DNA of 23,377 nucleotides, from positions 1-23,377 of IMG/VR virus record IMGVR_UViG_3300045241_000150. One strand, written 5' to 3'. The notes under the pieces were generated by a model, which saw only the letters and a list, made by a program, of their open reading frames with translations, was not told the DNA's origin and made no database searches. The stretch is from a virus. Position 1 is the first letter of the stretch; every line of letters begins with the position of its first letter. The position numbers were made by a program, and so were the translations under genes. This document shows positions 3,030-23,377 of the stretch, piece by piece.

Positions 3030-3071
3030 GCCGGGGGGCTCTTCGGTATCGAGCCTCGGAAGCCCCCCGGC
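3030..3071. terminator. Strong G/C-rich stem-loop, possible terminator
   Basis: GCCGGGGGGCT (3030-3040) and AGCCCCCCGGC (3061-3071) are an exact 11-bp inverted repeat with a 20-base loop. It lies between the minus-strand 54-residue gene and the early promoter, so it could stop leftward transcripts before the methyltransferase operon. No T-run follows on either strand, so intrinsic termination is uncertain. A protein-binding site or processing signal is an alternative. Confidence 0.4.
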
Positions 3072-3106
3072 TCCCTCATTCTATGACCCGTGTACACTGC
3101 GCGGCA

Positions 3107-3193
3107 GAGCTGACACCTCCCACCCCACCAGACGAGCGAGCCTGCCTGTTGTTGTCAGCTCCGGGCGGGCTCGCTCAAGACGGAGAGCTGACA
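3107..3193 (+). promoter_or_regulatory. Leader with alternative, crossing base-pairings
   Basis: GAGCTGACA occurs at 3107-3115 and 3185-3193, and its exact complement TGTCAGCTC at 3153-3161. A second exact inverted pair, GAGCGAGCC (3134-3142) and GGCTCGCTC (3168-3176), interleaves with them. In plus-strand RNA the central arm can pair with either outer copy, and each option crosses the second stem, as in a pseudoknot. The last copy lies between the GGAG (3182-3185) and the ATG (3198) of the 29-residue gene, so one fold would hide its start. Confidence 0.5.
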
Positions 3194-5881: not shown

Positions 5882-6730
5882 TTACGTGTCGGAGTACACG
5901 AGGTCGTCCTGGGCCTCGGTCTGGATGAGGTCGGCGAAGACCAGCGGCGTCGATGGCGTGTCGCTGATGAGCAGGGTGCCGCCACCGCCGCCCGCCGCGA
6001 CGTGGGCCGCCAGGGCGGCAGCCGCGTCGGTGGCGACCTCGGCGATGGCGGCCTGGACGTCGGTCGCCGCGATCGTGCCGGTCGGCGTGAAGGTGATCGA
6101 GCTGGCCGTGCCGCCGCCCGTCGAGACACCGAGCAGGGTCCGGGCGGCGGCGGCGTCGGCGGTGTCGAGCAGGGACCGCCCGTAGGCGTCGCTGGGGGTC
6201 GCCTCGACCGTCCCCGCGCCGTACAGCTCAAGGGTGTACACCGCGGCGTCCCAGGGCACGGTCCCGGTCTGGGCTATCCGCCAGTAGCGGGCCGAGGTCA
6301 GGGCGAATTCGCGGAGGCCCTTGTCGCCGCCGGCCCCACCGGTGACCGTGTCGACGGTCGTGAACGTCCCGGTCGAGGTCGTCGACCAGGCCAGGACATA
6401 GGCCGTCGGGATCTCGTTGGCGACCGTCGAGAGGACGATCCGCCAGGCGTCGATGGCCTTGACCGCGCCGAGGTCGACGACCATGTAGGCGCCGGTCCCG
6501 CCGTTGGGGTGCCACTTCGTCGTGTCGTCGCCGTCGATGGCGAACCCCGGCAGGTCCGTCCCCGCGTTGCCCGAGTAGGGGCCGATCGATGCGCCCTCGG
6601 CGAAGGTCGCCACGTTGGCGGTGCCGAGGTAGGGCATGTCGCCTGGCAGGACCAGCGGGTGGACGTCGTGGCCGTCGTCGTCGAGGTCGCCGGCATGGCG
6701 GGCGAGGGTGACTTCCTGGGGGACGCTCAT
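5882..6730 (-). CDS. Tail fibre with discoidin (F5/8 type C)-like domain
   Basis: 282 residues; the ATG overlaps the preceding stop (ATGA). Residues about 35-172 look like a discoidin/carbohydrate-binding domain: IGPYSGNAGTDLPGFAIDGD, DDTTKWHPNGG, AYMVVDLGAVKAIDAWRIVL, SARYWRIAQTG and YTLELYGAG. That is the order usual in F5/8C domains: substitution loop, VDLG strand and the ARYWRI core. After it come an Ala-rich helix (LLDTADAAAARTLLGV) and FTPTGTIAATDVQAAIAEVA, a repeat unit common in trimeric phage fibres. The C-terminus is short. It probably binds a cell-surface glycan during adsorption. It sits between the hub protein and the second fibre gene. Confidence 0.72.
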   Translation of the reverse strand: MSVPQEVTLARHAGDLDDDGHDVHPLVLPGDMPYLGTANVATFAEGASIGPYSGNAGTDLPGFAIDGDDTTKWHPNGGTGAYMVVDLGAVKAIDAWRIVLSTVANEIPTAYVLAWSTTSTGTFTTVDTVTGGAGGDKGLREFALTSARYWRIAQTGTVPWDAAVYTLELYGAGTVEATPSDAYGRSLLDTADAAAARTLLGVSTGGGTASSITFTPTGTIAATDVQAAIAEVATDAAAALAAHVAAGGGGGTLLISDTPSTPLVFADLIQTEAQDDLVYSDT

Positions 6731-20854: not shown

Positions 20855-21330
20855 CAGGCCGGTCGTCCGAAGTACATCCGCCGCTGGCGTCGGCCGGAAG
20901 CGACAGCGGCCGTCTGAAGCCGTCCAGGACGGGCTGGGGACGGCTGGATCGGGCTAGGCAGGGCTGAGATGCGGGGAGATTGCAGGAGCGCATCTTCCAC
21001 ACCCCGACCGCCAAAGAACCGACCCCCCTCGGCTCTCACCCGGTGGAAGCCCGTGCCCTCGCTCCCAGCCCGTGAGAACGGGGTGCGTGGGGTGGTCGCG
21101 TTCATCGCCTTCGACCAGCCTGGCCTGCCACCCGGTGAGCGGCTGCTGTTGCACGGCCCGCAGGCTGCCACCAGGTTGCCGAGATCCCACCACGGCCCAC
21201 CCTCGGCGACGGCGATGACGTGGTCGACGCTGTTGGCCGGCCCACCGCACCAGTTGCACGTGAAACGATCACGCTCGAGGACGACGAGGCGCACACGCTG
21301 CCACCTGCGACTCGACCGGAAGTCACCCAC
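20854..21330 (-). CDS. HNH endonuclease next to terminase
   Basis: 158 residues. The HNH module occupies residues 1-75: RLVVLERDRFTCNWCGG with the first Cys pair, NSVDHVIAVAEGGPWWDLGN with the catalytic Asp-His, and LVAACGPCNSSR with the second Cys pair. The remainder is Arg/Pro/Gly-rich and low in structure. Phage HNH proteins encoded beside the terminase (HK97 gp74 type) assist DNA cleavage at packaging. The start is a GTG (21328-21330) without a recognisable ribosome binding site; an in-frame TAA at 21337-21339 excludes anything further upstream. A 10-bp inverted repeat sits three bases before this GTG. Confidence 0.85.
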   Translation of the reverse strand: MGDFRSSRRWQRVRLVVLERDRFTCNWCGGPANSVDHVIAVAEGGPWWDLGNLVAACGPCNSSRSPGGRPGWSKAMNATTPRTPFSRAGSEGTGFHRVRAEGGRFFGGRGVEDALLQSPRISALPSPIQPSPARPGRLQTAAVASGRRQRRMYFGRPA

Positions 21331-21333
21331 GGG

Positions 21334-21372
21334 ACGTTACGGTACACCACGACTCCAAGCGCACCGTAACGT
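21334..21372. promoter_or_regulatory. 10-bp inverted repeat before the packaging operon
   Basis: ACGTTACGGT (21334-21343) and ACCGTAACGT (21363-21372) are exact reverse complements with a 19-base spacer, filling most of the 61-base gap between the zinc-finger gene and the HNH gene. Spacing of arm centres is 29 bases, close to three helical turns, which suits an operator. As RNA it would form a hairpin ending next to the GTG start. Confidence 0.45.
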
Positions 21373-21391
21373 TCCGCGAAGTGAAGCGGTC

Positions 21392-21823
21392 TCAGGCTTG
21401 CCTCAAGCGCCGAGCAGAGGCAAGCTCTTGACGAAGTCGGAAATAGATCGCAGCAAGGTCTCGCGCCTCCTGCGTGTCATCGATCCTCCAGTAACGTATC
21501 GCTGTCGGATGGAACTTCCTCTGATACTCGCGTTGCCAACAGCGGGTGGAACAGTACTTGCGTGGCCAGCCGTCGTGCTTGGTCATCAGCAGTCCGCAAC
21601 TGGCACAGCCCTCGACCCGTATCGGGCAGGATGACCCGATGAGCCGCTGCTGATAGTCGGATGCACTCTTGGCACGAGCCGATCCGAGGGCGACCATGAG
21701 GCCCGTTCCGCGGTAGCACGGAAGTGAGCAGTAGCGCGGTGGCCGCCCGCGGCCATGACTGACCCTGCCGACGAACTCTGCGCCGCATCCTGCACAAGTC
21801 GCGGCTATGCGGCGGTTAGGCAC
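21392..21823 (-). CDS. Double zinc-finger protein, 143 aa
   Basis: 143 residues from a GTG (21821-21823) that overlaps the previous gene's TAA, with GAGAAGG just upstream. An open reading 17 codons longer exists but lies in the neighbouring gene. Two treble-clef-like zinc sites are visible: C10-x2-C13 with C32-x3-C36 (TCAGCGAEF ... RYCSLPC) and C73-x2-C76 with C91-x3-C95 (GCASCGLLM ... KYCSTRC). Each follows the C-x2-C...RYCS-x2-C pattern seen in many phage HNH-associated and regulatory proteins, but no HNH core is present. The C-terminus is helical (ARDLAAIYFRLRQELASARR). Base composition is less GC-rich than its neighbours, suggesting later acquisition. Probably binds DNA or RNA. Confidence 0.72.
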   Translation of the reverse strand: MPNRRIAATCAGCGAEFVGRVSHGRGRPPRYCSLPCYRGTGLMVALGSARAKSASDYQQRLIGSSCPIRVEGCASCGLLMTKHDGWPRKYCSTRCWQREYQRKFHPTAIRYWRIDDTQEARDLAAIYFRLRQELASARRLRQA

Positions 21824-22079
21824 TTGCCTTCTCGTCCTCAGCCTCGAGCTCGGCCTCAAGCAACGGGATGCCACCCGTCCGATTCATCTGACGGCGGTAC
21901 TCCATCTCGAGCTTGAGGCTCGACAACATCTTGCCGACCGCGTTCGTGACCGCGTTGGCATTCGCCGGCGAGGTGGTCTGTGCCGCCAGATCGCGTATCT
22001 GGTCAGAGAGCACGATGCGTATATCCGTCATCGACATCAGCGAACCGCGTTCGCCTTCGATCCGTTCGACCTTTGCCAT
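21816..22079 (-). CDS. Small helical phage protein, 87 aa
   Basis: 87 residues from an ATG (22077-22079) with a clear GGAGG six bases upstream. A GTG at 22157 would add 26 residues but would put the hairpin region inside the gene and has no good ribosome site. The sequence includes TDIRIVLSDQIRDLAAQTTS, NAVGKMLSSLKLEMEYRRQM, IPLLEAELEAEDEKASA. The GKxxxxxKLEMEYxxxxxxxxxIPxL pattern occurs in many phage proteins of unknown function. The structured leader described at 22095-22151 suggests that its translation is controlled. Confidence 0.72.
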   Translation of the reverse strand: MAKVERIEGERGSLMSMTDIRIVLSDQIRDLAAQTTSPANANAVTNAVGKMLSSLKLEMEYRRQMNRTGGIPLLEAELEAEDEKASA

Positions 22080-22094
22080 GAGGAACCTCCGTCC

Positions 22095-22151
22095 GGTCCC
22101 GAACACAATGTGTCCTGGCTCGACGGTCGGGACCATCGCCCGTCGAGCCAG
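22095..22151 (-). promoter_or_regulatory. H-type pseudoknot in the leader of the 87-residue gene
   Basis: Read on the minus strand, CTGGCTCGACGG (22151-22140) pairs exactly with CCGTCGAGCCAG (22126-22115), 12 bp. The 13-base loop ends with GGTCCCGA (22134-22127), which pairs exactly with TCGGGACC (22102-22095), 8 bp, downstream of the stem. There is no base between the second stem's first arm and the first stem's second arm, so the two helices can stack. Connecting loops are 5 and 12 bases. The GGAGG ribosome site starts four bases later. This resembles the translational control pseudoknot of T4 gene 32, in arrangement only. Confidence 0.65.
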
Positions 22152-22160
22152 ATTCACCGC

Positions 22161-22523
22161 TTATGCCAGCGCATCCCCGATGCGCCCTTCGGTGAGGTCA
22201 CCCGGTCGCCACACGAACGTCTCGCAGCCTGCCGCCCGGAGCATCGACATGACGTAGAACTGGTCTGCCGTCAGGTCGTCGCCCAGCTCCCGCTTGATCT
22301 CCACGTACAGCGTCCTGCGCTTGAGCGGATGGACCAGGACGAGATCGGGCCAGCCCTTGCCCAGCGGTCCCTCGACGGGCGTCCGCCAGCCACGTTCTGT
22401 CCTCGCAGGACGGAAGTGGACCCACGACCAGCCGTAGATCGTGGCGAGTTCGGTCACGAGACGCTGCAGCTCGGCCCCCGACGTATGGCGATCGAGCCGC
22501 TGGGCCTCGGTCAGGAGGGGCAT
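22161..22523 (-). CDS. VRR-NUC family nuclease
   Basis: 120 residues, one base after the upstream stop. VRR-NUC hallmarks: an N-terminal helix with SGAELQRLVTELATIYGW, then EGPLGKGWPDLVLVHP with Asp60, TLYVEIKRELG with Glu75 and Lys77, TADQFYVMSMLRAAG with Gln88, and TFVWRPGD at the end. These are the PD-(D/E)XK-like catalytic residues of the family, whose small phage members cut branched DNA such as Holliday junctions. Likely used to resolve recombination or replication intermediates before packaging. Its neighbours are the putative initiator upstream and the 87-residue gene downstream. Confidence 0.85.
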   Translation of the reverse strand: MPLLTEAQRLDRHTSGAELQRLVTELATIYGWSWVHFRPARTERGWRTPVEGPLGKGWPDLVLVHPLKRRTLYVEIKRELGDDLTADQFYVMSMLRAAGCETFVWRPGDLTEGRIGDALA

Positions 22524-22524
22524 C

Positions 22525-23160
22525 TCAGATGATCCCGCTGTCGCGCAGCTCCTCGACCGTCCAGGGCTGCTTCAATGTTGCGTCCTTACTAGAGAAGTAG
22601 TAGTTCCCTAGACCATGAGCCTCTATCTCTGTCCATGTGGCCTTGGACGCAACATTGACTTTCAAGCGTGAAAGGCGGGCCTGGGCGGCCTCCCACCAGC
22701 GGTGGACGCGCTCCTTGGCGGCCTTCCGGAAGCGGTCCCGGCCGTCGTCCTTGAAGCGCCGGAAGATGACCAGCCCTGCCCACCGGCCCCGTCCCACGAT
22801 GTAGGCGATCAGCCCCCAGGCCGAGAACTTGACCAGCGCCCGGGACACCGTCGAGGGCGCCATCCGGAGCTCGGCGGCCATCTCCCGCATGGTCAGCCCG
22901 CGACCTCCCTCGATCATCTCAAGGGCCAGGACGAGGACCCGCTTCTGCTTGGGGGTGATGGCCTGCGGCCGGCCGTCGGCGTCGTCGATCCAGACGAGCT
23001 GGGCGCCCGGGTTCATCCGCTGCCAGAGACCGAAGCCGCGACCCATCGGGACCGTCGCCCGACCATTGGCAGCCGGGTCCTGGACAGGGTTCCGCTCCAT
23101 CCGGTCGGCGATGTCGGAGTAGATGCGCTCGCGAAGGAGGATTGACTGCGTCGACGTCAT
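22525..23160 (-). CDS. Winged-HTH DNA-binding protein, replication initiator candidate
   Basis: 211 residues from an ATG (23158-23160) with GAGAGG about ten bases upstream. Residues about 68-135 contain a winged helix-turn-helix: ITPKQKRVLVLALEMI, then GGRGLTMREMAAELRMAPST, VSRALVKFSAWGLIAYIVGR and a beta wing GRWAGLVIF. The remainder is basic and helical (KAAKERVHRWWEAAQARL). The C-terminal codons 168-197 lie in a stretch of lower GC content bounded by a 14-bp inverted repeat. Phage replisome organisers often carry the origin inside their own gene, as in lambda O, so initiation is a reasonable inference. A transcriptional regulator is the main alternative. No helicase loader or primase is recognisable nearby. 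Confidence 0.7.
   Translation of the reverse strand: MTSTQSILLRERIYSDIADRMERNPVQDPAANGRATVPMGRGFGLWQRMNPGAQLVWIDDADGRPQAITPKQKRVLVLALEMIEGGRGLTMREMAAELRMAPSTVSRALVKFSAWGLIAYIVGRGRWAGLVIFRRFKDDGRDRFRKAAKERVHRWWEAAQARLSRLKVNVASKATWTEIEAHGLGNYYFSSKDATLKQPWTVEELRDSGII
22572..22658. repeat. Nested inverted repeats of lower GC content inside the winged-HTH gene
   Basis: TCAATGTTGCGTCC (22572-22585) and GGACGCAACATTGA (22645-22658) are an exact 14-bp inverted pair 59 bases apart. Inside lies a second, CTAGAGAA (22589-22596) and TTCCCTAG (22604-22611), matching at 7 of 8 positions around a 7-base loop. By my count 27 of the 59 spacer bases are G or C, far lower than the surroundings. The codons here use AT-rich synonyms (AAT, GTT, ACA, ATA, CTA, AGT) that the rest of the gene mostly avoids. 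Confidence 0.7.
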
Positions 23161-23284
23161 CTTGATAATCCCTCTCTATGCGGTCTAGGCGGATCGCTAC
23201 GAGGAACGGACCGGCCGGCTGTGACTCGAGGTATGCCATTCGCTCTCGACATGCGACGATCAACCGCCGGTCCTCCTCCCTCAT
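22919..23284 (-). CDS. Small ORF overlapping the winged-HTH gene, 121 aa at most
   Basis: The frame opens at an ATG (23282-23284) four bases after the SSB-like stop. The first 41 residues (MREEDRRLIVACRERMAYLE, then SQPAGPFLVAIRLDRIERDY) are protein-like and helical. From 23160 downward it overlaps the winged-HTH gene in another frame, and the remaining 80 residues are Pro/Arg/Gly-rich, as expected of a shadow. Either a short leader gene with a tolerated overlapping tail exists here, or the first part belongs to the HTH gene through a frameshift. A ribosome site is poorly placed. No family recognised. Confidence 0.4.
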   Translation of the reverse strand: MREEDRRLIVACRERMAYLESQPAGPFLVAIRLDRIERDYQDDVDAVNPPSRAHLLRHRRPDGAEPCPGPGCQWSGDGPDGSRLRSLAADEPGRPARLDRRRRRPAAGHHPQAEAGPRPGP

Positions 23285-23287
23285 CCT

Positions 23288-23377
23288 CTAGAACGGAAGT
23301 TCGTCGCTGTCCGCCTCCGTGACCATGTTGGGCAGCGGTCCTGCCGGCTCAGGGGTCGCCGTCGCAGCCGGTCCGGG
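23288..23377 (-). CDS. Phage ssDNA-binding-like protein, C-terminal part with acidic tail
   Basis: Reading from the window edge, this 29-residue tail is Pro/Ala-rich and ends NMVTEADSDELPF followed by TAG (23288-23290). The cluster of acidic residues followed by a final hydrophobic-Pro-Phe is the hallmark of SSB C-terminal tips, which bind helicases, nucleases and recombination proteins. The start lies outside this end of the window. Joining this segment to bases 1-371 through the shared GGTCCGGG keeps a single frame, so the two pieces are most likely one gene split by linearising a circular sequence. Direct end-to-end joining without the overlap would put the two pieces in different frames. 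Confidence 0.7.
   Translation of the reverse strand, partial: PGPAATATPEPAGPLPNMVTEADSDELPF

Follow-up and report, generated by a model that had tools for sequence, protein, structure and literature searches.

Leaders in which a pseudoknot forms at or upstream of a ribosome binding site (RBS) have been described for both bacterial and phage genes. One example is rpsO: in both E. coli and M. smegmatis its leader alternates between a two-hairpin form and a mutually exclusive pseudoknot at the RBS, and in M. smegmatis the pseudoknot precedes the start codon (PMC8470358). The gene 32 operator of phage T4 contains a pseudoknot of approximately 28 nt, located approximately 67 nt ahead of the start codon, and its ligand is the phage SSB. 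Downstream of this pseudoknot, the RBS is embedded in an unstructured, UUAAA-rich stretch of more than 40 nt (PMC535899, PMC3014915). A 2010 review noted that the T4-type gene 32 pseudoknot is possibly the only viral example in translational autoregulation (PMC3014915). A different use of a pseudoknot is seen in the gag-pol signal of MuLV, where a spacer of 8 nt separates a UAG from the H-type pseudoknot (PMC4178896).

The window analysed here is an IMG/VR virus record at its full length of 23,377 bases, with a G+C content of approximately 70%. The gene order on the minus strand is the end of an SSB gene, an HTH protein, a VRR-NUC nuclease, an 81-nt gap that contains the element under study, an 87-aa ORF, a Zn-finger/HNH-like protein, an HNH protein, TerL, portal, and the capsid region. 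The SSB C-terminal end (...SDELPF) is at the record edge (23288-23377, minus strand), upstream of the HTH and VRR-NUC genes; the record is cut within an SSB/recombination module. Matches of the VRR-NUC protein are to Arthrobacter, Brevibacterium, and Rothia phages, and those of TerL are mostly to Mycobacterium, Gordonia, Microbacterium, and Arthrobacter phages at approximately 30% identity; the proteins of the window thus point to actinobacterial phages. Within the 3' portion of the HNH gene, immediately ahead of TerL, GCGC at 20988-20991 (minus strand) is flanked exactly by the ends of a relative (23,324 bases, TerL 91%) that ends ...GTGTGGAAGAT and begins TCCTGCAATC; the first bases of a second contig (L005) are likewise TCCTGCAA. 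These look like the natural termini of a genome at a cos site, with a 3' overhang of four bases (GCGC), or like termini trimmed by as much.

The original prediction placed two exact helices of 12 and 8 bp at 22095-22151, with loops of 5, 0, and 12 bases and an end four bases before GGAGG. We found exactly one interlocked pair of helices there, all of it Watson-Crick. In the mRNA sense (minus strand) the loop lengths agree, and they become 12, 0, and 5 when the plus strand is read. The distance to GGAGG, which precedes the 87-aa ORF on the minus strand, is likewise exact. Read in this direction the gap is TAA-GCGGTGAAT-CTGGCTCGACGG-GCGAT-GGTCCCGA-CCGTCGAGCCAG-GACACATTGTGT-TCGGGACC-GGAC-GGAGG-TTCCTC-ATG, where TAA (22163-22161) is the stop of VRR-NUC and ATG (22079-22077) is the start of the 87-aa ORF. 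The features are as follows.

22161-22523, minus strand: VRR-NUC nuclease gene, upstream of the element (Pfam PF08774, E 1.6e-5).
22140-22151, minus strand: stem 1, 5' strand (CTGGCTCGACGG), 9 nt past the VRR-NUC TAA, in exact pairing with 22115-22126.
22135-22139, minus strand: loop 1, 5 nt (GCGAT), from the helix search.
22127-22134, minus strand: stem 2, 5' strand (GGTCCCGA), within the loop of hairpin 1, from the helix search.
22115-22126, minus strand: stem 1, 3' strand (CCGTCGAGCCAG), adjoining stem 2 with a junction of 0 nt, from the helix search.
22103-22114, minus strand: loop 3, 12 nt (GACACATTGTGT), containing the only ACACANTGTGT palindrome of the window, from the helix and repeat searches.
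22095-22102, minus strand: stem 2, 3' strand (TCGGGACC), with an alternative partner at 22082-22087, from the helix search and folding.
22086-22090, minus strand: Shine-Dalgarno (SD) sequence GGAGG, 6 nt before the ATG, from the sequence.
22082-22087, minus strand: GGTTCC, competitor for GGGACC (22095-22100), from folding.
21816-22079, minus strand: 87-aa ORF, an orphan predicted to be all-helical, from the ORF list, homologue searches, and structure prediction.

The pair at 22095-22151 ranks first among all interlocked pairs of the window with 20 base pairs, followed by two sites with 18 (3134-3193 and 6110-6166). In simulated genomes of the same length and composition (third-order Markov), the expected number of pseudoknots with at least 20 exact pairs was 0.033 per genome. 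Dinucleotide shuffling of the 81-nt gap yielded at least 20 pairs in none of 3000 shuffles, and a 12-bp stem likewise in none of 3000. When hairpin 1 was kept in place, 64 of 20000 shuffles (0.3%, p ~0.003) produced a second helix that interlocked with it and had 8 bp or more. Compact stems of at least 10 bp spanning no more than 60 nt fall in gaps in three of four cases, while gaps make up approximately 6% of the sequence, where the gene set is our own reading of the ORF list. The inverted repeats could still have arisen by chance in a G+C-rich genome, since the window holds two 12-bp stems, one of them intragenic, and simulated genomes average 0.65 each; the shuffles, the simulated genomes, and the location in a gap nevertheless make this explanation highly improbable. 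At the level of sequence the feature is genuine and unusual. The 12-bp hairpin very probably exists and, judged from the complementarity, the pseudoknot fold is plausible.

Other structured sites occur in the window. A near-perfect 22-bp hairpin at approximately 21325-21380 (minus strand) occupies the gap between the Zn-finger and HNH genes and ends at the HNH start codon; together with the element at 22095-22151 it brackets the 87-aa/Zn-finger gene pair. The intergenic region 3030-3193 contains a hairpin of 11 bp at 3030-3071 and, at 3107, 3153, and 3185, three copies of a repeat, alternately GAGCTGACA and TGTCAGCTC, that can give mutually exclusive hairpins and an interlocked pair of 9 + 9 bp.

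The codon score of the gap is -0.43, far below that of the flanking genes, and the 87-aa ORF in the same frame scores +0.31; scores as low as that of the gap are found in 1.6% of 26-codon windows in the genes of this phage. The original prediction had taken the gap to be non-coding, and this is borne out, as is the non-chance character of the pairing. The VRR-NUC and 87-aa ORFs (22523-21816, minus strand) occupy one frame with a single TAA between them, after which approximately 27 codons are open. A pseudoknot here might act in recoding, by stimulating readthrough of the VRR-NUC TAA into a VRR-NUC/87-aa fusion with approximately 27 linker codons and no further stop. The order of stop codon, 8-9 nt spacer (9 nt here), and putative H-type pseudoknot resembles that of the MuLV signal, as does the open frame beyond, which here runs into the 87-aa ORF. 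By contrast with MuLV, the stop is UAA and not UAG, the linker is not coding-like, the next gene has its own SD, and the ribosome would be that of a phage-infected bacterium. An open in-frame gap of this kind has approximately a 15% chance of occurring, and in the relatives of VRR-NUC the stop codon, usually TGA, comes at a similar residue position. Because the linker scores as non-coding and the 87-aa ORF has a separate and strong SD, we consider readthrough very unlikely. Pseudoknot-driven readthrough is established for eukaryotic ribosomes, and we know of no phage case.

To gain a view of the competing folds, we compared calculated energies. Hairpin 1 alone has -25.1 kcal/mol. The best nested fold of 22151-22077 has -38.7 kcal/mol and contains hairpin 1 without stem 2; in addition, GGGACC (22100-22095) is paired in it to GGUUCC (22087-22082), and this pairing overlaps the SD. 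This sequestering hairpin has six pairs, including one G-U, contributes -7.9 kcal/mol, and extends over the two final SD bases. Pseudoknots are not modelled by ViennaRNA. The energy of the putative pseudoknot was estimated from stacking sums with penalties that we assumed, 7 to 12 kcal/mol being the range of common pseudoknot models; it is -42.5 kcal/mol with the lowest penalty and -37.5 kcal/mol with the highest. From these calculations the two states appear to be close in energy; what they have in common is the 3' strand of stem 2. Opening GGAGG is calculated to cost 4.2-5.9 kcal/mol, which drops to 1.4-2.1 kcal/mol once this strand is engaged elsewhere. Sequestration of the SD was rejected as a stand-alone signal, as an equally stable sequestering hairpin is found in 8-18% of spacer shuffles and is not significant alone. 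The opening cost of the RBS of the 87-aa gene is mid-range among the genes of this phage. For these two reasons the switch is put forward as a proposal and not as a finding.

The main rival to such a switch is a plain intercistronic stem-loop, in which hairpin 1 would act at a gene border in the processing or stability of the mRNA or in rho-type termination, and the second helix would be coincidental or minor. The best nested fold agrees with this, since it keeps hairpin 1 and lacks stem 2, and other gaps also carry stem-loops (the 22-bp hairpin before the HNH gene and the 11-bp hairpin at 3030-3071). However, the rarity of a second interlocking helix in shuffles with hairpin 1 in place argues against a coincidental stem 2, and no U-tract follows the hairpin. 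We judge the plain stem-loop unlikely, while giving it real weight. An intrinsic terminator, defined as a G+C-rich hairpin with a U-tract, was not found anywhere in 21300-23377, and no Rfam family reached its gathering score; the only matches were at chance level (E up to 5) and none was within the gap.

The imperfect palindrome GNACACANTGTGTNC / GAACACAATGTGTCC at 22101-22115 lies mostly in loop 3 and includes the only ACACANTGTGT of the window. It could be an operator or a site for the pairing of two RNAs. A site that acts at the DNA level, either an operator or a recombination site, would mean that the inverted repeats merely resemble RNA helices; this near-palindrome and the long inverted repeats would suit such a site, as would the HTH protein encoded two genes upstream. 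Against this, the palindrome is single-copy in the window, no sigma-70-like promoter was seen in the gap, and no integrase was found among the ten proteins scanned. A DNA-level site is improbable on this evidence.

We tentatively favour, at somewhat less than an even chance, an intercistronic cis-acting RNA control element that sets translation of the 87-aa gene, with a pseudoknot that leaves the SD open and a two-hairpin form that hides it. In this model we infer transcription, folding, the switching and the direction in which it works, and any ligand. One leftward operon would be transcribed through the 81-nt gap that separates VRR-NUC from the 87-aa gene, and the 12-bp hairpin 1 would fold first. 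Its 13-nt loop could then capture the downstream TCGGGACC to give a coaxially stacked H-type pseudoknot in which GGAGG is open. When the loop is unavailable, GGGACC would pair with GGUUCC and part of the SD would be buried. Expression would track the balance of the two states; a protein, ribosomes on the gene upstream, or cotranscriptional folding might shift this balance. We favour a control element because the exact helices are far above the level in shuffles, compact stems are mostly in gaps, the two states have similar estimated energies with a fall in the SD opening cost, the rpsO leaders offer a precedent (PMC8470358), and the gap has neither a U-tract terminator nor a sigma-70-like promoter. 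The case is weakened because the sequestering hairpin is not special and the RBS opening cost is mid-range, because the protein and leader have no homologue in the collections searched, and because the pseudoknot energies rest on assumed penalties and the element comes from a single genome.

The 87-aa protein is predicted to form three helices (pLDDT 69); the predicted structure had no significant fold match and no RNA-binding signature was found in the protein. Searches for its homologues found none in IMG/VR, in GTDB genomes, in phage records (E up to 10), in seven related virus records, or among all open frames of the retrieved loci. Exact 19-20-mers of the leader DNA are absent from IMG/VR, and blastn of the leader in phages and plasmids gave short chance matches only. 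With VRR-NUC as bait we obtained one relative at 66% and ten viral loci with an alignment. Among the readable loci, the next gene follows the VRR-NUC stop directly or overlaps it in most cases, and none has a comparable structured gap after the stop. A two-row VRR alignment had no match in GTDB genomes, and no relatives were found with the HTH and Zn-finger proteins as bait. In the closest TerL relative (91%) the module upstream of HNH differs and has been replaced. Within the data at hand, the element is lineage-specific.

The original prediction had also proposed the logic of T4 gene 32, in which the 87-aa protein would bind the pseudoknot and repress its own translation. The likeness to the T4/RB69 gene 32 leaders is that of a putative intercistronic pseudoknot upstream of the RBS of a phage gene. 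By contrast with the approximately 28 nt of that pseudoknot and the tens of nucleotides that follow it, the knot here spans 57 nt and ends 4 nt from the SD. The 15 nt from its end to the ATG are G+C-rich without UUAAA repeats. The product is a predicted helical 87-mer and not an SSB; the phage encodes its own SSB elsewhere, at the window edge. Two defining features of a gene 32-type operator thus fail, namely the unstructured UUAAA-rich stretch with the RBS and SSB as the regulated gene. The gene 32 claim is not supported, and autogenous repression of this type by a protein with no RNA-binding signature found is quite improbable.

The closer likeness is to the rpsO (S15) leaders, in that this leader could adopt either of two mutually exclusive forms beside the SD, one with two hairpins and one with an H-type pseudoknot. 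The estimated energies of the two forms are near-equal, but the sequestering hairpin is not above chance. It differs in that the gene is not S15, no ligand is known, and the leader lies between two cistrons of a phage operon. Stem 1 has no U-G/C-G motif because it is all Watson-Crick. By analogy, the element resembles the rpsO leaders in design and would not be a member of their family. Whether it is a bistable phage leader, with a hairpin loop that captures a downstream strand and opens the RBS (the pseudoknot being the ON state) and with an origin independent of both rpsO and gene 32, is doubtful at present. At present this is one orphan case, open to a clear mutational test. If the proposal is true, the element would be a second and unrelated phage leader of such a kind beside gene 32, found in a small genome and strong and easy to test in its design, and pseudoknot-based control would be more widespread.
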